DNA of 47,569 bases from Oscillospiraceae bacterium (GTDB lineage: Bacteria; Bacillota; Clostridia; Oscillospirales; Ruminococcaceae): NCBI GenBank assembly GCA_017555565.1, contig JAFZGF010000052.1:1-47569 (forward strand). Direction: 5' to 3'. The first letter of the stretch is position 1. Every line of letters starts with the position of its first letter. The translations under genes were made by a program, and so were the position numbers. The notes under the pieces are model-generated. The model had not been told where the DNA came from. It made no database searches and saw only the letters and a program-made list of their open reading frames with translations. Positions 2,672 through 24,443 of this stretch are shown piece by piece.

Positions 2672-2992
2672 ATGGACTTGCTGTATTCACGTTACAGCAG
2701 TCCTATGGATCTGATGGACAGGTACATTAAACAAGGGCGGTTTGGCAAGTTCGTACACGGCTTCATGGAAGCTGAGTATGAGCGCAAGAAACAGGAAGCA
2801 GAACGGGATAACGAATGGAAGCTGTGGGTGGCATACGTTCACAGCTATTCAGAAAAGACGTATGACGAATGGAAAAAGCAGATTTTCGGGACAAGCACCA
2901 CAAAGCCCGGAAAGTCTGATGCGGATTTGACGGACGAAGGAATCAAATCCATCATTGATTCACTGTTCACTGACCCAAAGCCCCGGGAATGA
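2672..2992 (+). CDS. tail assembly chaperone, T extension (made as G-T fusion)
   Basis: This frame is in -1 relative to the short chaperone and stays open back to the slippery site, so it is probably translated mainly as the C-terminal half of a GT fusion. An ATG at 2672 could allow independent synthesis of 106 aa, but no good ribosome site precedes it. The sequence is helical and strongly charged (EAEYERKKQEAERDNEWKLW), as seen in T domains that contact tube subunits. Its stop codon TGA lies inside the leader box before tape measure 1. Confidence 0.78.
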   Translation: MDLLYSRYSSPMDLMDRYIKQGRFGKFVHGFMEAEYERKKQEAERDNEWKLWVAYVHSYSEKTYDEWKKQIFGTSTTKPGKSDADLTDEGIKSIIDSLFTDPKPRE

Positions 2993-3021
2993 TAGGCCTT
3001 CACACTTTGAAGGGGTGAAGG
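2985..3021 (+). promoter_or_regulatory. leader element copy 1 (box GGGAATGATAG plus hairpin), before tape measure 1
   Basis: Box GGGAATGATAG (2985-2995) is followed by a hairpin CCTTCAC (2997-3003) / GTGAAGG (3015-3021). The inner TTGAAGG can compete for the same left arm. A tiny ORF runs from the box ATG at 2989 to TGA at 3018 (MIGLHTLKG). It ends 12 nt before the GTG start of the next gene. Three more + strand copies share this layout at 15155, 23361 and 24195. Confidence 0.6.
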
Positions 3022-3030
3022 GTTACGGAC

Positions 3031-4806
3031 GTGTTTACATTGCTTGGTACAATCGCTATCGAGAATACCAAAGCAATCAAGGCGTTGGAAGAAACATCCG
3101 AAAAGTCAGAAGAAACAGCCGTAACGGTTGAAAAAACTGCTGACAAAACGGAAGAAGCAGGAAAGAAAACGGAAAACGCCTTTACAGGCATAGGCAATGC
3201 CGCGCTTGGGCTTGGAAAGTTCGTTGTGAAGGCAGGCACAGCCATTGGCGGCGCGTGGTTTGCGGCAGTTGAGGGAACACGGGAATACCGTGCTGAAATG
3301 GGCTTGCTGGATGCGGCATTTCTGAAAAGCGGTCATACATCAGCAGAAGCCAAACAGACATATTCAGACCTGAATGCCGTGCTTGGCGATACAGGGCAGG
3401 CCGTGGAAGCCGCACAGCACATTGCGCTGATTGCAGACAATGAAAAAGAGATGAACGAGCTTACGCACATAGGCACGGGCATCTTTGCAAACTTCGGTGC
3501 AAGCCTTCCCCTTGAAGGACTTTTCGAAGCCGTGAACCACACAGCCAGTTTGGGAGAGGTGCAAGGCAGTCTCGCCGATGCCCTCGAATGGTCAGGCATT
3601 ACCGTTGAGGAATTCAATGAAAAGCTTGAGAAATGCACCACAGAGGAAGAACGGCAAGACCTGATTGTAAAAACCTTGCAGGATACCTATGGGAAAGCCG
3701 GAGATCAGTACAAGGAAACCAACAAGGATGTCATGGAAGCCAACAAAACCCAGGAACGTCTGACGGATGCTTTTGCAGAGTTCGGTCGGGTCAGTGACCC
3801 GATCTTAAGCACCATCAAAAACGCTGTAGCGGCATTTGTAGAAGCGGCGGTACCGAAGCTTGAAGAACTGATTCAGAAAGTCAAAGACGTGAAAACGTGG
3901 GTGCAGGAGAACGAACAGACCATCAAAGACTGGGCAGCTGTGATTGCAGGTGCTACCGTCAGCATTGGATTGTTCCTGCTGATCCTGAATTGGGGCAAAA
4001 TCATGGGCGCGGCAAAGACTGCCATTCTTGGCGTTAAAACGGCTGTACTACTGTTGAACGCAGCTATGAAGGCGAATATCATTGGCTTGATTGTGAGCCT
4101 GATTGCAGGCCTTGTAACAGCGTTTGTACTGCTGTGGAAGAACAACGAAGACTTCCGAAAGTTCTGGCTGGATTTGTGGGCGAAGATCAAAAGTGCCTGT
4201 TCGACTGCTGTAGACTGGATCGAAGATAAGCTTGACAGCCTTGGTAAGGTGGCAAAGAAGGTTGGAGACTGGTTCGGTGATATCAAAGATTCTGCCGTTG
4301 AAAGTTTTGATGACGCATGGAAATCCGTCAAAAAGGTGATCGACAAAATCACAGGGCTGTTCCCGCTGAACATCGGAAAGATTTTTGATAATATCAAAAT
4401 CCCCAAAATCACGGTAAGTGGCGGCGAAGCTCCCTATGGTATTGCAGGCTTCGGCAAATTGCCCAGCTTCAAAGTCAAATGGAACGCTGAAGGCGTGATT
4501 TTCAACAAGCCAACGGTGTTTGATACGCGAATGGGCTATCAGGGAGTTGGTGAAGGCCGGGATGCTGAAGCGGTTACGCCTATTGGCAAACTGCTTGACT
4601 ATGTGACAACGGCTGTCAGAAGCGAGAACGGAAACCTGGGGCAGATCATCATTGACCAGAACCGAATGCTGATGGATTTGCTTGCAAGGATCATGCCACA
4701 TGATGTGCGGTTAAGCACAGGTGCGCTTGTTGGTGAACTGATTCCTGCTGTTGATACGGGGCTGGCAAACAGGTATGCACACGTTGGGCGCGGCAATGTT
4801 AGGTAA
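3031..4806 (+). CDS. tape measure protein 1 (shorter paralogue)
   Basis: This 591-aa protein starts at a GTG preceded by GGGGTGAAGGG. It opens with LLGTIAIENTKAI, close to the start of the second tape measure (LFGTIAINNDDAN). The N-terminal half is Glu/Lys/Thr-rich coiled coil. Two hydrophobic stretches lie at about 303-320 and 349-371. The C-terminus AEGVIFNKPTVFDTRMGYQ also matches its paralogue, but the usual VGEAGAEAV motif has become VGEGRDAEAV. It should set tail length and may help DNA entry through its membrane-active helices. It follows the chaperones directly, as the main tape measure should. A terminator comes right after it, which is unusual in a tail operon. Confidence 0.78.
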   Translation: MFTLLGTIAIENTKAIKALEETSEKSEETAVTVEKTADKTEEAGKKTENAFTGIGNAALGLGKFVVKAGTAIGGAWFAAVEGTREYRAEMGLLDAAFLKSGHTSAEAKQTYSDLNAVLGDTGQAVEAAQHIALIADNEKEMNELTHIGTGIFANFGASLPLEGLFEAVNHTASLGEVQGSLADALEWSGITVEEFNEKLEKCTTEEERQDLIVKTLQDTYGKAGDQYKETNKDVMEANKTQERLTDAFAEFGRVSDPILSTIKNAVAAFVEAAVPKLEELIQKVKDVKTWVQENEQTIKDWAAVIAGATVSIGLFLLILNWGKIMGAAKTAILGVKTAVLLLNAAMKANIIGLIVSLIAGLVTAFVLLWKNNEDFRKFWLDLWAKIKSACSTAVDWIEDKLDSLGKVAKKVGDWFGDIKDSAVESFDDAWKSVKKVIDKITGLFPLNIGKIFDNIKIPKITVSGGEAPYGIAGFGKLPSFKVKWNAEGVIFNKPTVFDTRMGYQGVGEGRDAEAVTPIGKLLDYVTTAVRSENGNLGQIIIDQNRMLMDLLARIMPHDVRLSTGALVGELIPAVDTGLANRYAHVGRGNVR

Positions 4807-4813
4807 AAAGAAA

Positions 4814-4837
4814 GGACGCTGTGAAAGCGTCCTTTTT
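4814..4837. terminator. bidirectional terminator between tape measure 1 and the Ig-like gene
   Basis: Stem GGACGC / GCGTCC with loop TGTGAAA is flanked by an A-rich run on the left and TTTTT on the right. It can therefore end transcription from both sides. It lies between convergent stops at 4806 (+) and 4840 (-). Confidence 0.85.
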
Positions 4838-4839
4838 CT

Positions 4840-6072
4840 TTAGTCGAGAAGTCTGTAGCCATCAATGTGGCTATCTGTAAAGTACGGGCACATGTAGGTC
4901 AAGCCAGTTTCGGAAACATATTCGTCAAAATCGGATAACGTTCCGTAGATTGTATGTGTATCACCAACTTTTAGAAGTCTGGCATATTCAAATTCGAAGA
5001 TGACATAACGTCTTTCGTCATCTTCTTTAAGTGTCCCGTAAACAAAACCTCTGTAAAGCTTGTCAGGTTCGTTCTTTGGAACAATTTTGACGATCTCACA
5101 TTTAACATGGGTTTTTGTTCCTATGCTTTCTTCTGGAGATCCCAGAAGTTTTGAAATCTTCACTGTGGGATAAGATACGTTGTCATATACAGCGGAGTGT
5201 TCAACTTTGATCTTAACTGTACGGACTGTTTTCCCGTTTTTTATGAAAGAAAGAGAACCTTCTCCAGCTTTCAACGGGATAATCTGCAACCACTCCAAGC
5301 CGTCAGCTTCGTCCAAGGGTTCAAACGTTGCGATGTTTCCACTTGTTTTAATGTTATATGTTGTGATTCCGTTAGTCCTGGCATGAACATAACCAAGGGT
5401 AACACCTTCTGGTTCAGTAATGGTGACATTTTTTTCGGTTACATAGCACGAAGGTACTGTAACTTCAATTTTTACGGTCTTACCTGATCCATCGGTTGCC
5501 TTGCCTGTAATGGTTGTGGTGCCGGAACCTTCACCAAATATTGTCCCATCGGCTGCTACACTTGCAATTCCAGAGTTTGCAGATGACCATTCCAGTGTTT
5601 GGTTTGTAGCATCAGAGGGCGTGATTGTGATTGCGGGCTTGTACATGAAATGGCCTTTGATTTCTCTACCCATTTCATAATAGGTCTTGCTGGCAAATGG
5701 AGCCATTGCAATTTCTATCTTTTGCTTTTCTGCTTTGATGGATGTGATGGGAACAATAACTTGCACTGTGCATTTGGCAAAATATTCAGTCCCATCTTCG
5801 GCAGTAGCTTTGCAAGAAATAACAACATAACCACCTGACACACCCTTAACAACACCAGCATTTACGGTAGCTACATTTTCATTACCTGATTGCCAAACGT
5901 AGGACAGCTTACCTGAAATGCCTTGGGAAATGATTTTGGGTTTGACGGTTTGACCGACAAGAACAGAGTAATTCGCATCTTCAAATGCAACGATCTGTGT
6001 TTCAGCAAAGCCAACAGTAACAAACAACAGTAGAGCAACCAAAATGGAACAAATAGAAACTAATTTTTTCAT
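4840..6072 (-). CDS. secreted Ig-like (Big_2) domain protein, moron
   Basis: This 410-aa protein is encoded against the tail operon. The start at 6072 follows AAGGAG by 8 nt and gives a clear signal peptide (MKKLVSICSILVALLLFVTV, then GFA-ET). Two Big_2-like Ig folds follow: VLVGQTVKPK...VATVNAGVVKGVSGG and ITPSDATNQTLEWSSANSG...GEGSGTTTI. The C-terminal roughly 100 residues (THVKCEIVKIV...GDTHTIYGTLSDF) look like an OB-type beta barrel. It has its own promoter and terminator, so it is likely expressed from the prophage and exported, perhaps changing surface adhesion or phage adsorption. No sortase LPxTG motif is seen. The function is inferred from domains only. Confidence 0.8.
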   Translation of the reverse strand: MKKLVSICSILVALLLFVTVGFAETQIVAFEDANYSVLVGQTVKPKIISQGISGKLSYVWQSGNENVATVNAGVVKGVSGGYVVISCKATAEDGTEYFAKCTVQVIVPITSIKAEKQKIEIAMAPFASKTYYEMGREIKGHFMYKPAITITPSDATNQTLEWSSANSGIASVAADGTIFGEGSGTTTITGKATDGSGKTVKIEVTVPSCYVTEKNVTITEPEGVTLGYVHARTNGITTYNIKTSGNIATFEPLDEADGLEWLQIIPLKAGEGSLSFIKNGKTVRTVKIKVEHSAVYDNVSYPTVKISKLLGSPEESIGTKTHVKCEIVKIVPKNEPDKLYRGFVYGTLKEDDERRYVIFEFEYARLLKVGDTHTIYGTLSDFDEYVSETGLTYMCPYFTDSHIDGYRLLD

Positions 6073-6093
6073 GAAAACCACTCCTTTTGAAAT

Positions 6094-6122
6094 ATTGTAG
6101 CCCCATGTTGGGCAAACAACAA
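6094..6122 (-). promoter_or_regulatory. sigma-70-type promoter of the Ig-like gene
   Basis: On the minus strand TTGTTG (plus 6117-6122) and TACAAT (plus 6094-6099) are separated by exactly 17 nt. They lie just upstream of the AAGGAG and ATG of the Ig-like gene. With the terminator at 4814-4837 this makes an autonomous transcription unit. Confidence 0.65.
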
Positions 6123-6157
6123 TGTTCAGAATGGTAAAAAAGGAGGTGCAGCACCAC

Positions 6158-8191
6158 ATGAATGTGTTTGAATTGTTCGGTACCATTGCCATTAACAATG
6201 ACGATGCAAACCGAAAGATTGACCAAACTGGCAAACTGGCAAACAACCTTACTTCTATTTTCAAGAAGGTTGGCACTGCTGTTGCTACTGTTTTTGCAGT
6301 CGATAAGATCAAGGACTTCGGGCAGGCATGTGCACAAACCTACGCAACCATTGCAGCTGAGAATTCAGCCTTTGCGCAGATTATGGGTGACTATTCTGAT
6401 ATCGCCAAAGAGAAGATGCAGAAGGTCGCAGACGAAACGGGTGTTGTGGCATCCAGATTGACACCCTACATGACATCAATGACAGCCAAATTCAAGGGAC
6501 TTGGCTATGGAATTGATGAAGCAACATCCCTTGCAACAGAAGGCTTGACGATTGCTTCTGACGCTGCTGCTTTTTGGGACAAATCACTTGATGAATCTAT
6601 GAGCCACCTGAACAGCTTTATCAACGGCAGTTATGAAGGTGGTGAAGCAATAGGCCTGTTTGCAAACGACACGCAAATGGCTTCCTATGCGGTAAGGCAA
6701 GGGGTTGTAAGGGAAACAAAAGAGTGGTCGAAGCTGGATGAAGCGAAGAAACAGGCATTGCGCATGCAGTATGCAAAAGAAATGTACAAGCAATCCGGCG
6801 CGACTGGACAGGCAGCAAAGGAATCTGGTGAATATGCCAATGTGCTTGCAAACCTGAAGGAACACTGGCGGCAACTGCAAGGCATTATCGGCAAGCCAAT
6901 CATGCAGAAGATGGTTCTTCCTGCGCTTCAAAAACTGAACGTGCTGATGCCTAAAATCAACGAAAAGGTGCAGGACATTACCGAAAAGGTGACGGAAGGC
7001 TTTGAAAGTATGGTTTCCTATTTCAAAGGCACGTTTGAGGATGTGTTCACAGAAGACGGAATCAACCTTTCTGGCGTTCCGAAGGCCTTTGCAAAAATGT
7101 TCGGTGACCTTTCACAGAAGGCACATGGTTGGCTGTCTAAATATGGTGTGAAACTATCAAACGTTTGGACTGGCAGTGTGTGGCCGTCTATACAGGAATT
7201 TATGAAAGTGCGCTTTGGCGTTGAAATGCCTTCGTGGGCAGAAACGGAACAGAAGGTTTCTGGCTGGTGGGGAAACGTACAAGCATGGTGGGAAGATAAA
7301 AAGGGCTATGTAACGGAAAATGTAAACTCTTTTACAAGTGAAGCAATCACAGCACTTTCGGACGTGTGGCAATGGGCAATCGGTGACGGTTCCGACTTCA
7401 TCAAAGCCGTTGCGCAAATTTGGATTTCAATCAAAGGGATCGGGCTTGCGCTTGCTGCACTTAGCAATCCGCTTCTGGTGCTTGCTGTCGTGGCGGCGTA
7501 TGTGATTACGAATTGGGAACAGGTCAAAGGAGCCGTTGACACTGCATTTGATACAACGGTTAGCTGGTTGGAAAAGAATATTGGCTCGCCAATGGAAAAG
7601 TTCCGCGAAAATGTGATTGAGCCACTGAAAAAACAATGGACTGAAATTGTTGTTCCGGCAATCACAAGCGCAGCAACGGCAGTTGACAATTTCCTTGGAA
7701 TCGGCCTTGTTAGCGGTTGGGACAGCCTTACAACGAACTTGAAGCAAACTTGGGAAAACGTTCGTGCAGCTGTTGTGGCTGCGACTGAAGCAGTGAAAAC
7801 GTTCCTTGGTTTGGAAGGCAATGCTGGTCTTGGCGGTGCAGATGCAAGACCTTGGTATGTGAAGGATCACCCAGAACTGTACACAAAACAAAGCACGGGC
7901 GGCGGTGGAGCGAGAAGAAGCCCGACTGTAACCGAAAACGCAGAAGGTGCCATTTTCAGCAAGCCTACAATCTTTGACACCAGACTTGGATATCAAATGG
8001 TTGGTGAAGCCGGGGCTGAAGCTGTTGCTCCAATCAGCAAACTGCAACAGTATGTTTCTGATGCTGTGAAAAACACGGTTGGTGCCATGCAGTTCAATGT
8101 TGTGCTTGATACGGGTGTTCTGGTAGGTCAGCTTGCACCACGGATGGACATGCAGCTTGGCACCTTGGCAAACAGAAAGGGGCGTGGATAA
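6158..8191 (+). CDS. tape measure protein 2 (longer paralogue)
   Basis: This 677-aa protein begins at the ATG at 6158, ten bases after AAGGAGGTG. It starts MNVFELFGTIAINNDDANRK. Residues about 60-250 are the conserved tape-measure core (FAQIMGDYSDIAKEKMQKVA, TPYMTSMTAKFKGLGYGIDE, SFINGSYEGGEAIGLF). A hydrophobic helix lies at about 428-449. The C-terminus has AEGAIFSKPTIFDTRLGYQ and the typical VGEAGAEAVAPI motif. It determines tail length and is injected with DNA in related phages. It is more canonical than the copy at 3031 but is cut off from the chaperone genes by the moron and a terminator, so its promoter is unclear. Confidence 0.85.
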   Translation: MNVFELFGTIAINNDDANRKIDQTGKLANNLTSIFKKVGTAVATVFAVDKIKDFGQACAQTYATIAAENSAFAQIMGDYSDIAKEKMQKVADETGVVASRLTPYMTSMTAKFKGLGYGIDEATSLATEGLTIASDAAAFWDKSLDESMSHLNSFINGSYEGGEAIGLFANDTQMASYAVRQGVVRETKEWSKLDEAKKQALRMQYAKEMYKQSGATGQAAKESGEYANVLANLKEHWRQLQGIIGKPIMQKMVLPALQKLNVLMPKINEKVQDITEKVTEGFESMVSYFKGTFEDVFTEDGINLSGVPKAFAKMFGDLSQKAHGWLSKYGVKLSNVWTGSVWPSIQEFMKVRFGVEMPSWAETEQKVSGWWGNVQAWWEDKKGYVTENVNSFTSEAITALSDVWQWAIGDGSDFIKAVAQIWISIKGIGLALAALSNPLLVLAVVAAYVITNWEQVKGAVDTAFDTTVSWLEKNIGSPMEKFRENVIEPLKKQWTEIVVPAITSAATAVDNFLGIGLVSGWDSLTTNLKQTWENVRAAVVAATEAVKTFLGLEGNAGLGGADARPWYVKDHPELYTKQSTGGGGARRSPTVTENAEGAIFSKPTIFDTRLGYQMVGEAGAEAVAPISKLQQYVSDAVKNTVGAMQFNVVLDTGVLVGQLAPRMDMQLGTLANRKGRG

Positions 8192-8194
8192 AAC

Positions 8195-8620
8195 ATGCAC
8201 GGTGTAACATTCGGAACCAAACACAGCTACACCACATGGGGCTTGTGGTTGAAAAGCAGGCCTGAAATCAGCCCTCCCAAGCCTAAAACAAAGCTGATCC
8301 AAGTGCCGGGAACAAACACAGTAATTGACCTGACAGAAAGTTTGACAGGTGGAGAAGTAAAGTACGAACCGCGCCAGATTCGATGCGAATTTTGCGTGAT
8401 AGGCGGAAGGTCAAATTGGCCTTCCGTTTATTCGTACATTCTGAACACGCTTCACGGCAAACGAATGCAGATCATCATGGATGATGATCCAGACTATTAC
8501 TACGAAGGCCGTGTGGCTGTTGACCAATGGGAAAGTGATGAAGTGACTGCAACCATTGTGATTACTGCGGAAGTGAACCCGTACAAGACAGCAACGGACG
8601 GAAGCGGGGTGTCATTGTAA
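8195..8620 (+). CDS. distal tail protein 1 (Dit-like)
   Basis: This 141-aa protein starts MHGVTFGTKHSYTTWGL, the signature of Dit proteins (x-G-I/V-T-F-G-x-x-H-S-Y). IQVPGTNTVIDLTE and a C-terminal TAEVNPYK strand follow. Dit forms the hexameric hub at the tail end and carries Tal and the receptor-binding proteins. The size fits the N-terminal Dit core without a carbohydrate-binding extension. The gene overlaps Tal1 by one base. A second Dit lies at 11524. Confidence 0.85.
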   Translation: MHGVTFGTKHSYTTWGLWLKSRPEISPPKPKTKLIQVPGTNTVIDLTESLTGGEVKYEPRQIRCEFCVIGGRSNWPSVYSYILNTLHGKRMQIIMDDDPDYYYEGRVAVDQWESDEVTATIVITAEVNPYKTATDGSGVSL

Positions 8621-15154: not shown

Positions 15155-15196
15155 GGAATGATAGGCGTTTCTACCCTGAATAAAGGGGGTTGAAAC
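15155..15196 (+). promoter_or_regulatory. leader element copy 2, before the DUF859-like tail protein
   Basis: Box GGAATGATAG (15155-15164) is followed by a hairpin GTTTC-t-ACCC (15167-15176) / GGGT-t-GAAAC (15187-15196). A tiny ORF from ATG 15158 to TGA 15193 reads MIGVSTLNKGG and ends 3 nt before the GTG of the next gene. The layout matches copies at 2985, 23361 and 24195. Confidence 0.62.
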
Positions 15197-17011: not shown

Positions 17012-17320
17012 ATGCAGATTACATTGACATGGCAAACCATCATCACGGCTTCAGCGTTTCTTGGTGCTGTTGTTGCGATTGCAACGTACTTCAGCAAAAT
17101 TGTACGCTGGGTGGACAGGCAGAAAAAGCAGGATGAAGATATCAAGAATCTTCGGAAACACCACGAAGAGGATATGGCAATCATCAAGGAGGAAAACACA
17201 CTGCTTGTATTTGGCATTCTGGCATGCCTGAAAGGTTTGCGTGAACAAGGCTGCAATGGCCCGGTTACTGAAACGATTGACAAAATTGAAAAATACCTGA
17301 ATCAAAAAGCGCACAAGTAA
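17012..17320 (+). CDS. small membrane-anchored protein (XhlA/holin-accessory-like)
   Basis: This 102-aa protein has an N-terminal membrane helix (about residues 8-27, IITASAFLGAVVAIATYFSK), a charged coiled-coil middle (RQKKQDEDIKNLRKHHEE) and a C-terminal ILACLKGLREQGCNGPVTET segment. The layout resembles small holin-associated proteins found after the tail genes in Bacillota phages. The real holin and endolysin are far away at 43586-44619. It is the last gene of the tail operon and is followed by a strong terminator. Confidence 0.6.
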   Translation: MQITLTWQTIITASAFLGAVVAIATYFSKIVRWVDRQKKQDEDIKNLRKHHEEDMAIIKEENTLLVFGILACLKGLREQGCNGPVTETIDKIEKYLNQKAHK

Positions 17321-17323
17321 GAA

Positions 17324-17352
17324 AGCCGGGGAGTGATCCCCGGCTTTTTTTG
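17324..17352 (+). terminator. rho-independent terminator of the tail operon
   Basis: Perfect stem AGCCGGGGA / TCCCCGGCT with a GTGA loop is followed by seven T. It separates the late operon from the lysogeny region. Confidence 0.95.
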
Positions 17353-17426
17353 TTTGTGTCGAAATGTGCCGAAAGCCACACAGGAATGGGAAAGCATGGC
17401 ATAATATGCCCGGAGGTTGATTTTTA

Positions 17427-17630
17427 ATGGATTATGTGCTTCTTGGGAAACGTGTACGGATCAGGAGAACGGTTTTGGAGCTTACACAGGAAGGGCTTGC
17501 TGAAAAAATTGGGGTTAGCACTTCATTTATCGGGCATATTGAGCGCGGCAGCAGGAAGCTTTCCGTTGAAACGCTGTACAGCCTTTGCGTTGCACTTGAT
17601 GTGTCTGCTGATTTTCTGATTGGAATATAA
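17427..17630 (+). CDS. XRE-family helix-turn-helix regulator (small)
   Basis: This 67-aa single-domain protein contains LTQEGLAEKIGVSTSFIGHI, a classic HTH_3 helix-turn-helix, and ends right after the fold. GGAGG lies 9-10 nt upstream of the ATG. TAATAT at 17402 may be its -10 element. Two similar stretches TGTCGAAATG and TGCCGAAAGC just upstream could be operator half-sites. It stands alone between two terminators, opposite the integrase unit. It may control integrase or lysogeny; its target is unknown. Confidence 0.75.
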   Translation: MDYVLLGKRVRIRRTVLELTQEGLAEKIGVSTSFIGHIERGSRKLSVETLYSLCVALDVSADFLIGI

Positions 17631-17654
17631 AAAAGAAGGCTACATGAGCCTTCT
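17628..17654 (-). terminator. terminator downstream of the integrase gene
   Basis: Stem AGAAGGCT / AGCCTTCT (17634-17641, 17647-17654) is followed on the minus strand by a run of T (plus A-run 17627-17633). It would end minus-strand transcription of the integrase unit. On the + strand it lacks a T-tract. Confidence 0.75.
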
Positions 17655-17714
17655 AAATTGTAACAGTAACAATATCGTTCCCAATGGAAAAGGTGAATTA
17701 CTGGAACAACGAGG

Positions 17715-19127
17715 TTAAAAAAAATTAACTCTCGTTATTTCTTTTTTTGTGTCATTCCAGTTGATTTCTATTGATTGTATAACAGAACGCCAGAAGGAGC
17801 GTTTGTGTTCATCGTCAAGACTGTTGTAAACTTCGCGCCATCCGCCTTCAAGGATTTTTTCAATTTTGCTAAAGTCTTTTACTTCAACCGTGTTGTGTTC
17901 GCGTTCTGCCGCTTCAAGTTTTTCTGTCAGTTCGGCAAAATCTTTTTCGTACTGTTCAACCTTTTTAATTTTGCCTGTTCTCCATGAGTAATTCAAACGT
18001 TCTATCTGTTCGTTGATTTCGTCAATGTCAAACTGCTTCATACCGTTATCTTCTGCATCAAGAACATTGGCAGCACTGATTTTTGCATTTTCCAGATGCT
18101 TTTCCAGATCGGCAAGGAGCATTCTTTCAAGAACGTTTTCGCTGATGTATTTTACGAATGTGCATCTGCTGTTTTTTCTTTGGTTATCACAGCGATATTT
18201 TTTATACGGTAACACATTGCCTGCTGTAGTCTTTCTGTGCTGTGTGCATCCAGCAAGCGTAAAGTTGCACTCAGGGCATTTGATCATTCCAGAAAAAAGG
18301 TAAGACCTATTCCCGGCGGTATTGTTTTTGATGTTGCGTTTGCCGATTTCCTGTAATCTGTCGAATGTATCTTTGTCGATGTATGGTTCGCAGTATGCAG
18401 GGTTATCTCTGTATGCACCATACAGCATTGGGTTTGCAAGAATTCTGGCAACGGAATTATAGGCTATATCAATGTTGTGTTTTGCTTTCAGATAGCTGAC
18501 AACCTTCCGTTTGCTTTGGTGTTTCAAACAGTAGTCAATGGCACCCGTGATAGCCTGTTCTGTTTCAGGGTTGCGGACAATCTTTTTTCTGCCGGTCTCT
18601 TTATCTGTGCAGATGATCCACGGAATTTGCATTTTTCCTGTGAGCGGTTGACCTGTTGACACTTTATAGTCATTTGTAAGATCGATTCGTTCTCCTGTTT
18701 GGTCGGCTTCCAATTCTGCAATGGTCAATTTCATGTTGACAAGCAGTCTGCCGTTTGCCGTGGTGAGATTGTACTGTTCTTCGGTTGCAGTCCACAGTAC
18801 AGGTTCAATGCGTTTCATGCACTCATGATACTCAGCCACGGAGCGGAAGAAACGGTCAAGCTTGATAAAAATGATACGGTCAAACTTGCCTTTTTCGGCA
18901 TCCTGAATCATTCGCTGTAATTCTGGCCTTCTTGCAATCTTCTTTCTGCCGGATACACCTTCATCTACATACCAGCCGACAATCTTCATGTTGTTTTCTT
19001 TTGCGTATTCTTCCAGCTTCATTTTCTGGGCATCCAGTGATAGGCCGTGAAGCTTTTGTTCCTGTGTGGATACACGGACATATGCCGCCACTGATTCTAT
19101 GATGTTTTGTTTTTCAAATACTGTCAT
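17715..19127 (-). CDS. large serine recombinase (integrase)
   Basis: This 470-aa protein starts at the ATG at 19127, after GGGAGAG; an upstream TTG at 19154 is less likely. The resolvase domain has AAYVRVSTQEQ with catalytic Ser20, then VDEGVSGRKKIARRPELQRM and FDRIIFIKLDRFFRS. A Recombinase domain follows (VSYLKAKHNIDIAYNSVARI), then a zinc ribbon with CPEC...C...C and a coiled-coil C-terminus (INEQIERLNYSWRTGKIKKV). Enzymes of this class integrate phage DNA between short attB and attP sites without host factors. A separate directionality factor would be needed for excision and is not recognised. attP is expected nearby. Confidence 0.93.
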   Translation of the reverse strand: MTVFEKQNIIESVAAYVRVSTQEQKLHGLSLDAQKMKLEEYAKENNMKIVGWYVDEGVSGRKKIARRPELQRMIQDAEKGKFDRIIFIKLDRFFRSVAEYHECMKRIEPVLWTATEEQYNLTTANGRLLVNMKLTIAELEADQTGERIDLTNDYKVSTGQPLTGKMQIPWIICTDKETGRKKIVRNPETEQAITGAIDYCLKHQSKRKVVSYLKAKHNIDIAYNSVARILANPMLYGAYRDNPAYCEPYIDKDTFDRLQEIGKRNIKNNTAGNRSYLFSGMIKCPECNFTLAGCTQHRKTTAGNVLPYKKYRCDNQRKNSRCTFVKYISENVLERMLLADLEKHLENAKISAANVLDAEDNGMKQFDIDEINEQIERLNYSWRTGKIKKVEQYEKDFAELTEKLEAAEREHNTVEVKDFSKIEKILEGGWREVYNSLDDEHKRSFWRSVIQSIEINWNDTKKEITRVNFF

Positions 19128-19175
19128 TTCTTTTCTCTCCCTTTGTTCCTCCAAATTTGTATTGCTATTTATTTA

Positions 19176-19598
19176 TTACTGACCAAGAAGCTTGTCAATG
19201 ATCCTGGCCTTGCGGTCATTTTCCTTTCGCCAGTAGTCGATTTCTTCAAGCAGTTTATTCACCTTTTCGGTTGCAGTTCCGTCATTGTAATCAAGTTCGC
19301 AAATGTGCCTGCCGACATCGCCAACGATAACAAGTTCGATTCTTCTTGCGGTGGCTCTCATAATGTCCTGATCAATGTTGATAGCCATGATGCGTTCTAT
19401 AGTCTTGATGGACACTTCTGCCGCCTGCGCTATATATGCGTTTGTCAAACGCGCAACATCCTTCACATCGCGCATGTACTCACACCAATTTTGCAAATCC
19501 ATTCCTCGCGTTGGTATTCCTCCGCATGCTTTTCTAAAATTCTGGCATGACAGACAGCGGTAGTATGGCTTCGTTGACGGGTCTTGCCTTGTTTTCAT
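19176..19598 (-). CDS. integrase-linked HTH protein with N-terminal Cys motif
   Basis: This 140-aa protein starts at the ATG at 19598, after GTGAGGAC; an upstream GTG adds 5 residues. The N-terminus carries YYRCLSCQNFRKACGG...NWCEYM, a possible zinc knuckle. TNAYIAQAAEVSIKTIERIM is a likely helix-turn-helix. The C-terminal 40 residues form a coiled coil (VNKLLEEIDYWRKENDRKAR). It is upstream of and in the same direction as the integrase, probably cotranscribed. Its role could be integration control or a directionality factor; this is inferred from position only. Confidence 0.65.
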   Translation of the reverse strand: MKTRQDPSTKPYYRCLSCQNFRKACGGIPTRGMDLQNWCEYMRDVKDVARLTNAYIAQAAEVSIKTIERIMAINIDQDIMRATARRIELVIVGDVGRHICELDYNDGTATEKVNKLLEEIDYWRKENDRKARIIDKLLGQ

Positions 19599-19863
19599 AT
19601 TTTTTGTCCTCACATCGTAAAATGGTACTGTTTTTCGCTAAAATAACGGGGGATGGTTACCGCATATATTTACACAGTAATCCGTGCATATTACATGGCA
19701 ATCCGTTTATGATAGGCTGTATTATCGTGCTAAAACATGATACCATTCAGGTGGGTCAGAGATGGCCTATCATTCCGGGCGGCGGGTGTGATCGGGTGGT
19801 GCTGCGTCGCACCCGCTTGTTCTCTACTTAAAGTTTTTAATATTTCGAATGTGGCAAAAGGTA
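19599..19863. promoter_or_regulatory. integrase/repressor intergenic region with nested inverted repeats, candidate attP or operator
   Basis: No gene is seen here. ATGATAGGC (19709-19717) is inverted at 19765-19773 (GCCTATCAT). Between them lies TATCGTG-ctaaaa-CATGATA (near 19724-19743), a smaller imperfect inverted repeat. GCGGGTGTG ... CGCACCCGC (about 19783-19817) forms a third, GC-rich hairpin. A large serine integrase usually keeps attP next to its gene, so an approximately 50-bp attP could lie in this symmetry. An operator for the divergent units is an equal alternative. Confidence 0.4.
19740..19776 (-). promoter_or_regulatory. leader-like box copy 5 (minus strand, degenerate)
   Basis: On the minus strand GGAATGATAG (plus 19767-19776) is followed by GCCATCTCTGACCCACC. 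This shares GATAG-n-CC-n-CTGACC spacing with the copies at 23361 and 24195. Its tiny ORF is only MIGHL. It lies about 170 nt upstream of the minus-strand HTH gene, not directly before a start, so it may be a relic or part of the inverted repeat. Confidence 0.4.
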
Positions 19864-19913
19864 TTGCCGATTCAGAAATATTTTTGTAGGATAACTTTTA
19901 GAACGTTCGTTCT
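19864..19913 (+). promoter_or_regulatory. promoter with LexA/SOS-box-like operator
   Basis: TTGCCG (19864-19869), a 17-nt spacer and TAGGAT (19887-19892) form a plausible promoter. AGAAC-gttc-GTTCT (19900-19913) lies over the expected start point and matches the Gram-positive LexA pattern GAAC-N4-GTTC. This suggests damage-inducible transcription of the gene at 19952. Confidence 0.5.
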
Positions 19914-19951
19914 CATAAAACCAAAGCCCCGGTTGAGAGGAGAAACCCCGT

Positions 19952-20173
19952 ATGACCAACGTAGAAAAACTAATTGCCTTCATCAAGACATTGACAAAAG
20001 AACAGGCAGATAAGCTTGTTGTCATGCTCCCGCGATTGGCTGAGTTGATCGAAGAACCAATCAATGAAAAGGAAGAATACATATCAGCCATCACAATGGC
20101 GCTTTACAAAACAACCGATGTTGCCATGTTAGACTTGATTCTGCAATTACTTCAAAAGAGTCGAAACGCTTGA
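19952..20173 (+). CDS. small helical protein, candidate induction factor or antirepressor
   Basis: This 73-aa protein (MTNVEKLIAFIKTLTKEQAD, then KLVVMLPRLAELIEEP) is almost entirely helical, with no known motif. GAGAGGAG lies upstream. Its gene is convergent with the CI-like repressor gene and overlaps its 3' end by 27 nt. An SOS-box-like site sits over its promoter. Since the repressor has no S24 peptidase domain, a LexA-controlled antirepressor, or antisense interference from this transcript, would explain induction. This role is an inference. Confidence 0.6.
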   Translation: MTNVEKLIAFIKTLTKEQADKLVVMLPRLAELIEEPINEKEEYISAITMALYKTTDVAMLDLILQLLQKSRNA

Positions 20174-20515
20174 TAGCTTTTCGGCGTCGAGTTCATACAA
20201 CGCTTCTACGGCAGTCAAAAAAGCTTTATCAGTTCTCAAACGTACAATGATATTCGCAAGAGTATCATTGCTTTTTTGCATTTCCCTTCTTTCCTCTGTT
20301 TTTTCTTCGATCAGGTCTGATTTCAGAATGCCGAAGTAATCAGCAAGTTTTTGCACCTTATCAATTCGCGGGAACTTTTTGCCTTTTACCCACTCGTGGA
20401 ATGTTGGTGCTGTAACACCCATAATTTCAGCAAGTTCTTTTTGTGTTTTTCCCGAACGCTCCATATACATTTGAAGGTTCTTAGAAAAAACTTCTTTCGA
20501 CCATTCATTCGTCAC
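20147..20515 (-). CDS. CI-like repressor (XRE HTH, no peptidase domain)
   Basis: This 122-aa protein starts at a GTG after AGGGAGGTGAT. Residues about 24-45 (KTQKELAEIMGVTAPTFHEW) form an HTH_3 motif with a WVKGKKFPRIDKVQKLADYF follow-up helix. The C-terminal 50 residues are helical and could mediate dimerisation. No S24/LexA-type Ser-Lys protease domain is present, so RecA-driven self-cleavage is not expected. Transcription runs away from the early operon, with ATTAGCTT-type operators overlapping both promoters. Confidence 0.82.
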   Translation of the reverse strand: MTNEWSKEVFSKNLQMYMERSGKTQKELAEIMGVTAPTFHEWVKGKKFPRIDKVQKLADYFGILKSDLIEEKTEERREMQKSNDTLANIIVRLRTDKAFLTAVEALYELDAEKLSSVSTLLK

Positions 20516-20543
20516 TTTATCACCTCCCTTGCTTTCTATATTA

Positions 20544-20577
20544 TAGAAGAAATTAGCTTAAAAAGCAATAAAAAAGT
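20544..20577 (-). promoter_or_regulatory. repressor maintenance promoter (minus strand)
   Basis: On the minus strand TTGCTT, a 17-nt spacer and TATAAT stand upstream of the repressor's AGGGAGGTGAT. The operator-like ATTAGCTTAAAAAGCAAT (20552-20569) lies within the promoter, so the repressor probably controls itself. Confidence 0.65.
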
Positions 20578-20584
20578 TTAAAAA

Positions 20585-20655
20585 ATTAGCTAAAAGCTAT
20601 TGACAATTGGCTAACGCTATTGTAATATAACATTGCGATTAGCTTTAAGCTAATC
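20585..20655 (+). promoter_or_regulatory. early lytic promoter with repressor operators
   Basis: TTGACA (20600-20605), a 17-nt spacer and TAATAT (20623-20628) form a near-consensus promoter. ATTAGCTAAAAGCTAT (20585-20600) touches the -35 box. GATTAGCTTTAAGCTAATC (20637-20655) is a perfect 19-nt palindrome at the start point. Together with GCTAACGCTA in the spacer they give several half-sites of the form AGCTAAT. The same palindrome recurs at 21384. Confidence 0.82.
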
Positions 20656-20833
20656 CAAAGGAAGCAGGGACGGTAAACGGTTAGGCTGAGATAAGAGTAC
20701 GGCTTAAGCCTGAGAACGCCGCAAGACAGGGCAACACCGGACGGTGAACCTACTTGGGTGCAGGTGGGGGCGTGAATCCTAACCACCCTGCAAGTAACCG
20801 AACCAACCGACCGACTAACGGGAGGGGAACACG
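20656..20833 (+). ncRNA. long structured 5' leader of the early operon
   Basis: About 180 nt without a convincing ORF separate the early promoter from the first gene. GGTTAGG (20679-20685) can pair with CCTAACC (20778-20784), while TGCAGGTGG (20759-20767) can pair with CCACCCTGCA (20783-20792). The two pairings overlap at 20783-20784 and are partly exclusive. GGCTTAAGCC (20701-20710) and CACC-gga-CGGTG add local stems. This may be an attenuator, an antitermination site or a small RNA. No known riboswitch class was recognised. Confidence 0.4.
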
Positions 20834-21130
20834 ATGGAAAAGACGATGGCTCGCGCAATCTACAAGCTGATGGAAATCGGCAAGCCCTACACAAGCATGC
20901 AACTGCGCGATCTTCTCGGGGATGATTACTACAAGTACATCCCGGTTGAGATGCAGGGCAAGGACGTGCGCAAGATCGTGAACGCTGAGATGTGGAAGGT
21001 TGTCAACTCTGGTTATGCCAGAAGCTACACCGAGCAGGAAAACCTCGCGATTGTGCGTGGAATCCGCTACGGTAGCAAGCCCACTGCGTTTCAGTCCTAC
21101 ACCTTCCGCTATTGGGTCAGATTGAAGTAA
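20834..21130 (+). CDS. early operon protein, unknown function
   Basis: This 98-aa protein is the first gene after the early leader and follows GGGAGGGGAA. It has AIYKLMEIGKPYTSMQLRDL and KDVRKIVNAEMWKVVNSGYA, then an Arg/Tyr-rich end. The spacing of helices is compatible with a winged-helix fold, but no family is recognised. As the first lytic gene it may be a regulator of early transcription. Confidence 0.65.
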   Translation: MEKTMARAIYKLMEIGKPYTSMQLRDLLGDDYYKYIPVEMQGKDVRKIVNAEMWKVVNSGYARSYTEQENLAIVRGIRYGSKPTAFQSYTFRYWVRLK

Positions 21131-21190
21131 TGACAACCCACAACGGAGATTGTCACACTGACGATGGCACCTTGGAAAGGAGGGGAGAAA

Positions 21191-21382
21191 ATGCCGAAGA
21201 TCACGCTGAAGGCCGCAAGAGTAAACGCGAACCTGACGCAGGCCGAAGCAGCCGCAAAGCTGGGTGTTGCTGTAAGCACCCTGAAGAACTGGGAAACCGG
21301 GAAAACATTTCCTAACAAGCCGAAGATTGACAGACTCTGCGAAGTCTACGGAATCACTTTTGATGTTCTTTTTTTTGGCTAA
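21191..21382 (+). CDS. Cro-like XRE regulator
   Basis: This 63-aa protein starts at the ATG at 21191, after GGAGGGGAG. It is a bare HTH domain: LKAARVNANLTQAEAAAKLG, then VAVSTLKNWETGKTFPNKPK. Small size and position just behind the early promoter fit Cro-type control. A repressor-type operator lies directly after its stop. Confidence 0.8.
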   Translation: MPKITLKAARVNANLTQAEAAAKLGVAVSTLKNWETGKTFPNKPKIDRLCEVYGITFDVLFFG

Positions 21383-21383
21383 T

Positions 21384-21401
21384 GATTAGCTTTAAGCTAA
21401 T
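21384..21401 (+). promoter_or_regulatory. remote copy of the repressor operator
   Basis: GATTAGCTTTAAGCTAAT repeats the palindrome at 20637-20655 almost exactly, about 745 bp away and inside the early operon. It could be a road-block site, a looping site, or the operator of a second weak promoter (TTGATG near 21359, 14-nt spacer, TAATGA). Confidence 0.72.
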
Positions 21402-21437
21402 TTCTTATGTGATGCACTGAGCAAAGGAGCGAACACC

Positions 21438-21590
21438 ATGATTGTTCTGAAGTTCCAAGCCCCGAACGGTGAAGTGGGATTCACCGAAGCCAATAGCGAG
21501 CAGGAAGCCATGAGAACTGTGAAGCTTTACATGGCAGATGGCTACACACTGCTGGAGCAGTACAACTGGGAGGATGAACACAATGCCTAA
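21438..21590 (+). CDS. small early protein
   Basis: This 50-aa ORF follows AAAGGAG by 8-9 nt. The protein (MIVLKFQAPNGEVGFTEANS, then EAMRTVKLYMADGYTLLEQY) has a beta-beta-alpha look with no known family. It overlaps the next gene by 8 nt, which supports coupled translation. Confidence 0.65.
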   Translation: MIVLKFQAPNGEVGFTEANSEQEAMRTVKLYMADGYTLLEQYNWEDEHNA

Positions 21591-21819
21591 CAACTGGCTG
21601 ACCGATGAAGCCGTAGAAGCGGAAATCGCAAGGCTTCAGCAATCGGAGTTCGTAAAGCTGGCGCGGAAGGAAATGCGGCTGAAGTACAAGCGGCGGCAAG
21701 CCCTGTACCAGCTTCGCAATCTGGACAAGCGCGGCAAGGAACTTGCCAAGGCTGGGATCACGCCTGAGAACATCGAAGCGACGATCGCCCTGGCAGAAGC
21801 TGAAAACCAAGAAATCTGA
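21583..21819 (+). CDS. small helical early protein
   Basis: This 78-aa protein starts at an ATG inside the end of the previous gene. It is rich in Arg, Lys and Leu (KLARKEMRLKYKRRQALYQL) and should be a basic two-helix protein. The function is unknown. Confidence 0.6.
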   Translation: MPNNWLTDEAVEAEIARLQQSEFVKLARKEMRLKYKRRQALYQLRNLDKRGKELAKAGITPENIEATIALAEAENQEI

Positions 21820-21859
21820 ACATTCAGATAATCGCAAGCAAGCGAAAGGAGCAACCAGA

Positions 21860-21991
21860 ATGGCAGGAATAAACAAACCACCTTCTGCAAAGAAAATCCT
21901 TTCGATTCTGGTTGAACTGTACGCAGACCAGATGGGCGTGAAAGTGCAGTACCAGATCGAGACAAACGAAGAATCGGAGGAAGCAATATGA
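21860..21991 (+). CDS. small early protein
   Basis: This 43-aa protein follows GAAAGGAG. Its sequence is MAGINKPPSAKKILSILVEL, then YADQMGVKVQYQIE and an acidic end. It is the only ORF with a good ribosome site here and joins the next gene through an ATGA overlap. The function is unknown. Confidence 0.55.
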   Translation: MAGINKPPSAKKILSILVELYADQMGVKVQYQIETNEESEEAI

Positions 21992-22164
21992 AGACCATTG
22001 GCAATATCGTAACCACTCTGGCGGCATTCATGTTCATGCTGGGCATGTGTTCCATTGACGGAAACCCGGCTTGGGCATTCGGCCTGATGTTCGTTTCCGG
22101 CATTGTGCTGGCGGTTTTCGGCTACCAGTACGAAGAAAAGCGGCTGAAGGAGGGGAAACGCTGA
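21988..22164 (+). CDS. small two-helix membrane protein
   Basis: This 58-aa protein starts at the ATGA overlap after GGAGG. It has two hydrophobic segments (about residues 5-22 and 28-46; FGLMFVSGIVLAVFGYQYEE marks the end) and a basic tail KRLKEGKR. It is likely an inner-membrane early protein, for example a superinfection factor. That role is a guess. Confidence 0.6.
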   Translation: MKTIGNIVTTLAAFMFMLGMCSIDGNPAWAFGLMFVSGIVLAVFGYQYEEKRLKEGKR

Positions 22165-22490
22165 TGTTTCGATACACGGATGATCCTGTAGCCGATGCAG
22201 AAGCGTACTACAACGAACTGGCAAGGCTGGAAGAACAGGTGCCAAGGTGCTGTGAGCATCCCGGCCCAGTAATGGAAAATTTCTATTACGAACTGAACGA
22301 TGACAGGCCAGTTTGCGCGGAGTGCCTTGATAAGAACCACAAGCTGGAAATCGAAGAAGGCCAAACGCTGGTGTGCGATTACTGCGAACATGCCATAGAA
22401 GATGATTGCGCTTACAGGAACGACGATGACGAAGTGTTCTGCAAGGCGTGTGTGGACAAGCATTTCAGGAAGGAAGTGGTGGTGGAATGA
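22164..22490 (+). CDS. zinc-ribbon-like protein
   Basis: This 108-aa acidic protein has repeated Cys pairs: RCCEHPG, CAECLDKNH, CDYCEHAIEDDC and CKACVDKHF. They can form two zinc knuckles. Start and stop overlap with neighbours (TGATG, ATGA). It lies directly before the C5 methyltransferase gene. It may bind nucleic acid or a protein partner. Confidence 0.65.
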   Translation: MFRYTDDPVADAEAYYNELARLEEQVPRCCEHPGPVMENFYYELNDDRPVCAECLDKNHKLEIEEGQTLVCDYCEHAIEDDCAYRNDDDEVFCKACVDKHFRKEVVVE

Positions 22491-23356
22491 AGGTTTTAAG
22501 CCTGTTCGATGGTATCAGCTGCGGACGGCTTGCGCTGGAACGGTCCGGCATTCAAGTTGACGAGTATGTGGCTTATGAGATTGACGAAAGTGCAATCAAG
22601 ATCAGCAAAAAGAACTGGCCTGACATACAGCACAAAGGCGATGTGACGAAGGCCGATTTCACCGAATATCAGCATTTCGACCTTCTGATTGGTGGAAGCC
22701 CGTGCCAAAGCCTTTCGATCATTCAGGCACATAAGCGCCAGAATCTGAAAGGCAAAAGTAAGCTGTTCTTTGAGTTTGTCAGGGCTATGGAGGAAATGAA
22801 GCCAAAATATTTCTTGTTTGAAAACGTGGCAAGTATGAACGAAGAAAGCAAGCAAACCATTTCGGAACTGCTGGGCTGTCAGCCCATCCTTATCAACGCA
22901 AATTGTTTCCTACCACAAGACAGGCCACGCCTGTTTTGGACAAACATACCTGTGGAAGTGGACAAACTTCAAGAGTGCAGTGCCAAGTTGCGCGACATCA
23001 TGCAGAAGGATGTTCCAGAAAAATACTTCTACAATTACACGCTTGAAGGCGTGGACATGGCCAAAAAAGTATGTGCACACGTTGTGTGTAAAAACTTAGA
23101 AATGCACAGGCGCGTATACAATCCAGAACACAAAGTTGGTTGCCTTACTGCCGTTTGTGGTGGAGGTCAGCATCGGAAAATCCTTGATGGTGGAAGAGCA
23201 CGAAAAATGACAGTGCTGGAATATGAGCGTTGTCAAGGCCTTACGGATGGATACACTGCCGGAGTAAGCGATAGCCAAAGCTACAAGGCAATTGGAAACG
23301 GCTGGCCTGTACCTGTAATTGCTCATGTTTTCACAGGTTTGAAGGACAAGCAATAG
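22487..23356 (+). CDS. DNA (cytosine-5) methyltransferase
   Basis: This 289-aa protein starts with the SAM-binding motif MKVLSLFDGISCGRLALERS. Catalytic motif IV is GGSPCQSLS with Cys73, motif VI FENVASM, motif VIII QDRPRLFW and motif X AIGNGWPVPV, all in the usual order. Length and motif spacing suggest a complete enzyme with a short target-recognition region. It transfers a methyl group to C5 of cytosine. No restriction endonuclease is adjacent, so it is an orphan methylase that probably protects phage DNA from host restriction. Confidence 0.92.
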   Translation: MKVLSLFDGISCGRLALERSGIQVDEYVAYEIDESAIKISKKNWPDIQHKGDVTKADFTEYQHFDLLIGGSPCQSLSIIQAHKRQNLKGKSKLFFEFVRAMEEMKPKYFLFENVASMNEESKQTISELLGCQPILINANCFLPQDRPRLFWTNIPVEVDKLQECSAKLRDIMQKDVPEKYFYNYTLEGVDMAKKVCAHVVCKNLEMHRRVYNPEHKVGCLTAVCGGGQHRKILDGGRARKMTVLEYERCQGLTDGYTAGVSDSQSYKAIGNGWPVPVIAHVFTGLKDKQ

Positions 23357-23360
23357 CCCC

Positions 23361-23406
23361 GGAATGATAGTCCGTTTTCTGACCACTATGTCAAGAAAGT
23401 AGTGGT
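23361..23406 (+). promoter_or_regulatory. leader element copy 3, before the beta-class methyltransferase
   Basis: Box GGAATGATAG (23361-23370) is followed by a hairpin ACCACTA (23382-23388) / TAGTGGT (23400-23406). A tiny ORF from ATG 23364 to TAG 23402 reads MIVRFLTTMSRK and ends 7 nt before the next start. The left arm is preceded by TTTTCTG, as in copy 4. Confidence 0.6.
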
Positions 23407-23409
23407 TGA

Positions 23410-24192
23410 ATGGTCTTACAAAATGGCGATTGTTTGGATTTGCTTAAATCATTAGATGCCGAAAGCGTTGATTTGACTGTTACAAGCCCACCATATGACA
23501 ACCTTCGTACATATAACGGAAGCATTAATCAGTGGTGTTATGAGAAGTTCCAAGCCATTGCATATGAACTGTTCCGTGTGACTAAGAAAGGCGGTGTGGT
23601 TGTTTGGATTGTTGCTGATGCAACAGTGAACGGAAGCGAAACAACTTCCAGTTTCAAACAGGCTTTGTGGTTTGTGAAACTGGGGTTCAGCCTGTTTGAC
23701 ACAATGATTTGGAAAAAGCCACATTGCGGAGCAATAGGCGGCATGAACAGATATGAAAATGTTTTTGAGTATATGTTCATATTTTCCAAAGGGAAGCCCA
23801 AAACAACAAACATCATCAAGGACAAGCCCAACAAGTGTTGCGGAAACATTCAGCATGGATCTGCAAGGCAAGCGGATGGAACAACCATAAGAACGACTGG
23901 CTACGGGAAAAGGAGAATTGCTGAATATGGCAGACGGCATAACGTTTGGGAAATAGCACCTGAAAAAAGCAATGCAAAACGATGCCATCCAGCACAATTC
24001 CCTGAAGCCTTGGCACACGATCACATCATATCGTGGTCAAAACCTAACGATACCGTTCTTGATCCATTCATGGGCAGCGGAACAACTGGAATCGCTTGTT
24101 TGCACACGTGTAGGGAATTCATCGGTTTTGAAATTGATGAAACATACTTCAGGATAGCCACCAAAAGACTGGAAAACGAAACTATTGGATAA
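23410..24192 (+). CDS. DNA N6-adenine or N4-cytosine methyltransferase (beta class)
   Basis: This 260-aa protein has motif IV TSPPYDN near residues 25-31 and motif I DPFMGSGTTGIAC near 217-229. The order IV before I defines the beta class. IWKKPHCGAIGG and FEYMFIFSKGKPK are further family features. TSPPY is common to N4 and N6 enzymes, so the base modified is not decided. It is the second orphan methylase in a row and is separated from the first only by the leader element. Confidence 0.9.
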   Translation: MVLQNGDCLDLLKSLDAESVDLTVTSPPYDNLRTYNGSINQWCYEKFQAIAYELFRVTKKGGVVVWIVADATVNGSETTSSFKQALWFVKLGFSLFDTMIWKKPHCGAIGGMNRYENVFEYMFIFSKGKPKTTNIIKDKPNKCCGNIQHGSARQADGTTIRTTGYGKRRIAEYGRRHNVWEIAPEKSNAKRCHPAQFPEALAHDHIISWSKPNDTVLDPFMGSGTTGIACLHTCREFIGFEIDETYFRIATKRLENETIG

Positions 24193-24194
24193 CC

Positions 24195-24240
24195 GGGAAT
24201 GATAGACCGTTCTGACCTCAATAAAAGAAAGGGGTCAGAA
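24195..24240 (+). promoter_or_regulatory. leader element copy 4
   Basis: Box GGGAATGATAG (24195-24205) is followed by a hairpin TTCTGACC (24210-24217) / GGTCAGAA (24233-24240). A tiny ORF from ATG 24199 to TGA 24246 reads MIDRSDLNKRKGSET. Its stop overlaps the ATG of the next gene at 24243 (ATGA). This is the clearest case for translational coupling. Confidence 0.62.
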
Positions 24241-24242
24241 AC

Positions 24243-24443
24243 ATGAAGGAATGCAAGCACCAGACGGATACATACAAAGCGGCTTTGGAACAGCTGGAAC
24301 AGATTATTGAAGTCATTGATCCTGTCGAAACAGTGAATGTGAAGGATATCACAGGCCGGATCAAACTTGCAGACCGCAACACCGAACTTACCGAAGCAAC
24401 CATCATGTTGCTGAATAAGTACGGCATTGATTACAGGGAGTGA
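24243..24443 (+). CDS. small early protein downstream of a leader element
   Basis: This 66-aa helical protein (KECKHQTDTYKAALEQLEQI, DRNTELTEATIMLLNKYGID) has no known family. The start is fixed by the ATGA overlap with the leader ORF. AAGGGG, seven nt upstream of the ATG, is part of the hairpin's right side, so hairpin folding could hide the ribosome site. Confidence 0.65.
   Translation: MKECKHQTDTYKAALEQLEQIIEVIDPVETVNVKDITGRIKLADRNTELTEATIMLLNKYGIDYRE

Follow-up and report, generated by a model that had tools for sequence, protein, structure and literature searches.

Host small RNAs such as DsrA, acting on rpoS, and RNAIII, acting on hla, activate translation in trans by freeing a Shine-Dalgarno (SD) sequence which is hidden by the leader of the target mRNA. 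The synthetic toehold switch consists of a short box beside an SD-hiding hairpin, which is opened by a trigger RNA pairing with the box and the 5′ arm of the hairpin. The 47,569-nt contig JAFZGF010000052.1 of an Oscillospiraceae bacterium (assembly GCA_017555565.1; this whole stretch is referred to as the window) quite probably encodes a phage small RNA acting as a trans-activator together with a regulon of toehold-switch-like leaders; the pairing between them is predicted from sequence, and from it we infer activation. The closest precedent among phage RNAs is IsrK of the Salmonella prophage Gifsy-1 which destabilises a helix hiding the ribosome-binding site (RBS) in a phage transcript and thereby activates translation (PMC4825925). 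The candidate RNA described here would share with IsrK the prophage origin, the action in trans and the opening of an RBS-hiding helix (PMC4825925). IsrK serves one target transcript, which arises when transcription reads through the same locus, and orf45 provides the coupling (PMC4825925); the present RNA would serve several dispersed leaders, all built to one standard form, with no need for a micro-open reading frame (micro-ORF). The IsrK locus lies within its own target transcript and acts through an upstream ORF, whereas the targets of the present locus lie elsewhere and their micro-ORF is not conserved. A review of phage RNAs covers c4, OOP, aQ, IsrK, VpdS and others (PMC12197685). In this review, c4 of P1 and P7 resembles the present RNA as a phage antisense RNA directed against a phage mRNA near the RBS, and differs from it in blocking translation (PMC12197685). 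A phage small RNA serving several such leaders was not found described in the literature, in which subscription journals were thinly covered. Compared with DsrA–rpoS and RNAIII–hla, the present RNA would be phage-encoded, with a short address box common to its targets and a 5′-terminal pairing region; as in trans-activating small RNAs, the SD is freed upon pairing in the modelling. With the toehold switch it shares an SD-hiding hairpin whose 5′ arm is the target of the small RNA; it differs in being natural, in having the SD in the 3′ arm or at the loop edge, and in a box whose openness does not clearly exceed that of the surrounding sequence.

We propose that the phage encodes one small RNA of about 68 nt whose targets, reached in trans, are leaders at several places in the phage genome. 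Each leader would consist of an address box, GGAATGATAG, and a subsequent hairpin with the SD on its 3′ side, immediately 5′ of the start codon. With its 5′ end, the small RNA would pair with the box and the hairpin 5′ arm (usually ...TTCTGACC), the 3′ arm would be displaced and the ribosome admitted. The RNA would be made and end at its hairpin, pairing would start at the box, and its outcome would be activation rather than silencing; these points, like the timing of expression, we infer. The coordinates of the features are compiled in Table 1.

Table 1. Positions of the predicted leaders, of the putative small RNA gene and of related elements (window coordinates unless another contig is given).
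Feature	Position	Strand	Remarks
Leader 1	2986–3030	+	box 2986–2995, hairpin 2997–3021; tape-measure-like gene starts 3031; duplex −27.3
Leader 2	15155–15196	+	box 15155–15164, hairpin 15167–15196; tail gene starts 15197; duplex −32.4
Leader 3	23361–23409	+	box 23361–23370, hairpin 23381–23407; DNA methyltransferase gene starts 23410; duplex −32.5
Leader 4	24196–24242	+	box 24196–24205, hairpin 24210–24240; 66-aa gene starts 24243; duplex −31.5
Putative trans-acting small RNA gene	19753–19820	+	extent from covariance model (~68 nt); 3′ end provisional
Antisense 5′ end of small RNA, GGGTCAGAGATGGCCTATCATTCC	19753–19776	+	complements leader box and hairpin 5′ arm
GC-rich small-RNA hairpin, loop with GGTGGTGCTG	19777–19815	+	strand-biased folding
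−10-like element TACCAT	19741–19746	+	6 nt 5′ of predicted small-RNA start
GGCTGT block at −38, possible activator site	19715–19720	+	same place in 21/37 loci
Hairpin-free boxes just 5′ of holin-like start codon	L110 (G003 33391−), L111 9789+ (G004), L011 5526+		

The exact box is found four times on the + strand, at 2986, 15155, 23361 and 24196, each time directly 5′ of a gene and followed by a hairpin, and a fifth time on the − strand at 19776–19767. Dinucleotide-preserving shuffles of the window contain 0.11 exact boxes on average and none out of 100 reaches five; the rest of the 2.08 Mb assembly holds only one more, on contig C16. The four + strand leaders had been recognized in the initial annotation, with two starts misplaced by one base (2986 and 24196 being correct), as had their hairpins, all of which are indeed more stable than their own dinucleotide shuffles (p 0.030, 0.005, 0.045 and 0.010 for leaders 1–4). 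The antisense copy on the − strand (within 19753–19776) had been missed. It provides an explanation for the conservation of the box: an exact antisense box occupies 19767–19776 inside the predicted 5′ end of the small RNA, and the four leaders are the best partners predicted for 19753–19776 in the remainder of the window. In a duplex scan of the window they rank just below the complement of the locus itself (−32.5 to −27.3, leader 1 being the weakest of the four), the next site reaching −24.3. In the other phages of the eight scanned, the highest ranks belong to the tail and small-gene leaders, and weaker leaders mix with the background (e.g. the tape-measure leader of G001, −25.1). The small RNA is encoded apart from its targets, the leaders of the window lying 4–17 kb from 19753.

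Further copies, for which the initial annotation proposed a search, are present in related genomes, where the same type of leader precedes homologous tail and tape-measure genes and others, and where an opposite-orientation copy is located in an intergenic region. On the strand complementary to the box the opposite copies read GGGTCAGARATGGCCTATCATTCC, followed by a GC-rich hairpin, and thus look like an RNA gene. For quantitative comparison we assembled 45 leaders of 27 phages, comprising the box-bearing tail, small-gene, tape-measure and methyltransferase leaders distinct in sequence; near-duplicates (such as G013, G015, G017, G021, G022, G329, G330, L141 and L142), genes without a box and boxes before other genes (such as G004 16117, G011 12572, G003 27234 and G019 33903) were omitted. 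Position 3 of the box is A in 31/31 leaders (18 phages) facing a U in the small RNA, and G in 14/14 leaders (9 phages) facing a C, i.e. at this position all 45 leaders match their own small RNA, where many A-type contigs had been found with position 3 fixed as A in one search element and the G-type contigs by protein or with positions 1–3 free. The 450 box cells together comprise 441 Watson-Crick pairs, 3 wobble pairs and 6 mismatches. In L140, L141, L142, L143 and L144 the box is GGGATGATAG, and the opposite copy correspondingly ends in ...TATCATCCC in L140, L141 and L143. The G phages do not form a single clade in the tail-protein tree (p-AU 5.8e-8), on which the G type requires four changes, at least three of them on well-supported branches; the pair test on this tree, in which both labels were one and the same list, shows the number of independent changes only, and a sign test would need more than the three independent pairs available. 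At position 8, another co-change is seen in MT835521.1, a GenBank phage from human faeces which a DNA similarity search with the small-RNA region had found; its small RNA reads ...GCCTGTCATTCC and its tail leader GGAATGACAG. Its apparently close relative G336 agrees, and L366 retains GGAATGATAG opposite a small RNA of the MT835521.1 type, which leaves a U·G wobble. The base before CTGACC was examined as a possible third position of this kind, but co-variation was not shown there.

The agreement extends beyond the box. Duplexes of leaders with their own small RNA are stronger than with small RNAs shuffled among phages (equalled in 0/20000 shuffles for all phages, 4/20000 for A phages and 202/20000 for G phages), and the own small RNA still pairs better when the box is removed (0/20000, 2/20000 and 259/20000, respectively), in shuffles which ignore the relatedness of the phages, a point to be held against our interpretation. 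The predicted base pairing between leaders and small RNA and their co-evolution are strongly supported at the level of sequence, as are both kinds of predicted hairpin and the −10 element at its fixed place.

The leader hairpins are conserved as structures. Their mean z-score in the 45 leaders is −3.82, with p ≤ 0.05 in 43/45, and the suggestion in the initial annotation that the stems change with pairing kept is borne out by the arms, which fit their own partners best (0/5000 arm swaps among the 45 leaders are as good). Because the SD lies on the 3′ side of the hairpin, pairing with the 5′ arm should free it. In 43 leaders the modelled openness of the SD is 0.30 for the leader alone, 0.64 in the presence of the small-RNA 5′ end from the same phage and 0.29 with a shuffled RNA; it rises by more than 0.1 in 37/43 leaders and falls by that much in none. 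The mean energy of the duplex between leader and small RNA is −34.8 kcal/mol, compared with −14.0 kcal/mol for the leader hairpin. Folded in longer context, the hairpin 5′ arm (0.19) and the SD window (0.17) are closed. On this modelling, pairing of the small RNA should open the gene.

The small-RNA locus was characterized in 37 related loci. The hairpin covariation score amounts to 0.550 compared with 0.201 after shuffling (0/500) and 0.277 for the best slid version, in an alignment which was fitted to the model and whose score leans towards it; likewise, the window locus scores 76.9 bits with model R1, which was built partly from the same sequence. In 37/37 loci the hairpin folds more stably as RNA of this strand than of the complementary one (mean −28.1 vs −16.7 kcal/mol), and contains 181 G-U pairs on this strand vs 7 on the complement. 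A TAnnnT hexamer is located at −12 to −7 from the first base of the small RNA in 36/37 loci; elsewhere in −60 to −16 its best place reaches 18 of 37. The strand bias and covariation of the hairpin, together with the constant position of the −10 element, argue for a transcript on this strand, the extreme 5′ end of which is antisense to the leaders. A weak terminator-like site (19798–19813) is found within the hairpin. At E values up to 10, no Rfam model matched at 19753–19820 or at the leaders, and assignment to the C4 antisense RNAs or another known Rfam family was rejected. The only match in the window above the gathering threshold is a GP20-b RNA (RF03003, 37.6 bits, cut-off 36.2) at 44657–44715 (+), directly 5′ of the gene at 44723; this site has no box.

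Other signals surround the locus. A second ATGATAGGC at 19709–19718 (+) overlaps the promoter region of the small RNA and is found at the same place in many relatives; together with the 5′ end of the small RNA it constitutes an inverted repeat in the DNA. Some phages (such as L011, L014 and L118) lack this second copy. Downstream, 148 nt 3′ of the small-RNA start, lies GAACGTTCGTTC (19901–19912, +), which we take to resemble the SOS box of Gram-positive bacteria, and GAACnnnnGTTC occurs 135–203 nt 3′ of the start in 20/37 loci, where shuffles expect 0.1. The rightward operon may accordingly be LexA-controlled.

Several findings weigh against our interpretation or limit it. The promoter of the small RNA has a poor −35 element, and a generic sigma-70 scan of 19600–20000 returned no full promoter. 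In longer context the box is open at 0.52 vs 0.48 in its surroundings, reaching at least 0.5 in 26/45 leaders. The six mismatched box cells lie at position 8 (G019 small2, L020), position 5 (G010 small) and position 1 (tail leaders of G320, G326 and G328), and a leader of G004 outside the set of 45 reads GGAATGACAG and mismatches the A of its small RNA at position 8. Two contigs possess the small RNA without the expected target: G327 (42.7 kb) lacks a strong leader and L159 has a tail homologue without a leader. The leader is likewise absent at the tape-measure genes of G326 and MT835521.1 and at the tail gene of G324. Finally, in a hairpin-free class (G003, G004 and G011) the box lies within the SD region of a small holin-like gene, where pairing would block rather than open; at the homologous holin-like genes of G322, G014 and G007 this box is missing.

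The hairpin-free class leads to the question of whether the small RNA pairs as described and silences its targets, by RNase III cleavage or premature termination, as an RNA of the prophage-immunity type. The predicted duplexes are long and stable, pairing in that class would cover the SD region, and the known phage antisense RNAs c4 and OOP repress (PMC12197685). The hairpin leaders, however, keep the SD outside the pairing, their modelled openness increases and in 0/43 decreases, and a pure repressor would need no SD-hiding hairpin maintained across 45 leaders; we consider silencing unlikely. Much less probable still is a box serving as a DNA site of the operator or stoperator type, or as the site of a phage protein, with shared letter changes following that protein. 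A changed binding protein would also change all its sites together, and many phages have the second, inverted ATGATAGGC in the small-RNA promoter. A DNA site, however, requires neither hairpins with exchanged stems, nor a fixed −10 element before the antisense copy, nor pairing with the stem side past the box, and the hairpin following the antisense copy has a strand preference in its folding.

The initial annotation had proposed a functional RNA or a coupled-translation switch, and described a Met-Ile micro-ORF starting at the box ATG. In the coupling reading the leaders would act alone, translation of the micro-ORF opening the hairpin. A functional RNA bearing on translation agrees with the present data; coupling through the micro-ORF does not. 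The four micro-ORFs of the window exist as described, all ending at most 12 nt from the next start, and the stop codon of the gene upstream of leader 1 overlaps the box ATG, but the micro-ORFs are not conserved in relatives. Among 41 leaders, 20 have a micro-ORF terminating ahead of the gene start and 3 one that overlaps the start by at most 30 nt; in 15 it extends deeper into the gene and in 3 it shares the reading frame of the gene. The box of one further leader (G010 small, GGAACGATAG) lacks an ATG. With 18/41 running far into the gene or in frame with it, and with the antisense locus and the co-change left unexplained, we rejected micro-ORF coupling as scarcely credible. A mobile or recombination linker at module borders, also considered at that stage, is not supported because the box stays in step with a distant intergenic locus. 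Activation by the trans-acting small RNA is the interpretation we retain.

As noted in the initial annotation, the leaders precede genes of different functions. According to PHROG matches, the gene behind leader 1 codes for a tape-measure-like protein; the product of the gene behind leader 2 is a tail protein with DUF859 and Gp10_C and that behind leader 3 an N6_N4 DNA methylase, and the 66-aa protein behind leader 4 has no match in Pfam or PHROG. The commonest leader target among the relatives is the tail gene (MAASGTIQQAIRTGYRLQ...). At the place of the 66-aa gene, 17 of the 18 relatives compared encode a protein with an N terminus resembling MKEYKSFYK (269–282 aa where complete), that of G001 matching Radical_SAM slightly above the cut-off; only G009 has the 66–68-aa type of the window. 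From these sequences, a radical-SAM gene would be controlled by the small RNA in most relatives compared, and the 66–68-aa protein instead in the window and G009. A phage radical-SAM protein (CGCQHDCAYCYAKSLL) is encoded at L103 3267–4078 (−), with homologues. The window represents one entire contig within the assembly, and a 141-base direct terminal repeat at 1–141 and 47429–47569 is what an assembler leaves on a circular sequence, so the phage may be complete. Megablast of window positions 1–25000 against named phages yielded no match.

The relatives derive from several surveys. An IMG/VR scan with the box plus CTGACC returned 30 stretches, 29 of which proved on inspection to be related phages and one of which (L026) looks like chance; scans with the SD-bearing arm and with box positions 1–3 free gave 22 and 43 stretches, respectively. 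Independently of the box, tail-gene homologues were fetched by protein (best 80 of 136, 24 inspected). Searching with the SD-bearing arm of the leader alone yielded six contigs of 30 kb or longer (G001, G002, G004, G006, G019 and G020), and all of them carry the small-RNA locus. A loop-based scan of viral contigs produced at least 120 stretches; among the matches listed, 4/74 newly fetched loci have the seed and 70/74 do not. From the 21 stretches of a scan of genome contigs, L054 is real on inspection and 20 are chance-like. A covariance-model match in G076 was taken as chance, as it is coding-like by eye and no matching leader was present in the stretches read. Searching 297 genomes of the family of the window for the small-RNA pattern recovered only that of the window itself, AATGATAG plus CTGACC has no match on the host chromosome (all three matches are on the window contig), and the methyltransferase relatives L007–L010 have no exact box.

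More broadly, we see an even chance that, in a family of gut phages, a single small RNA licenses the translation of scattered tail, tape-measure, DNA methyltransferase and radical-SAM modules by way of natural toehold-switch leaders of uniform design. Since the address differs between phage groups, a gene brought in by recombination would have to be re-addressed before its expression. If the proposed mechanism is correct, phages would have independently evolved the toehold-switch architecture and would apply it to several genes instead of one, and they would offer natural trigger/switch pairs with different addresses (the A, G and position-8 types). The system would also be a clear case of RNA addresses co-evolving in mosaic genomes, and would help in understanding the timing or licensing of translation by phages whose gut-bacterial hosts are uncultured.

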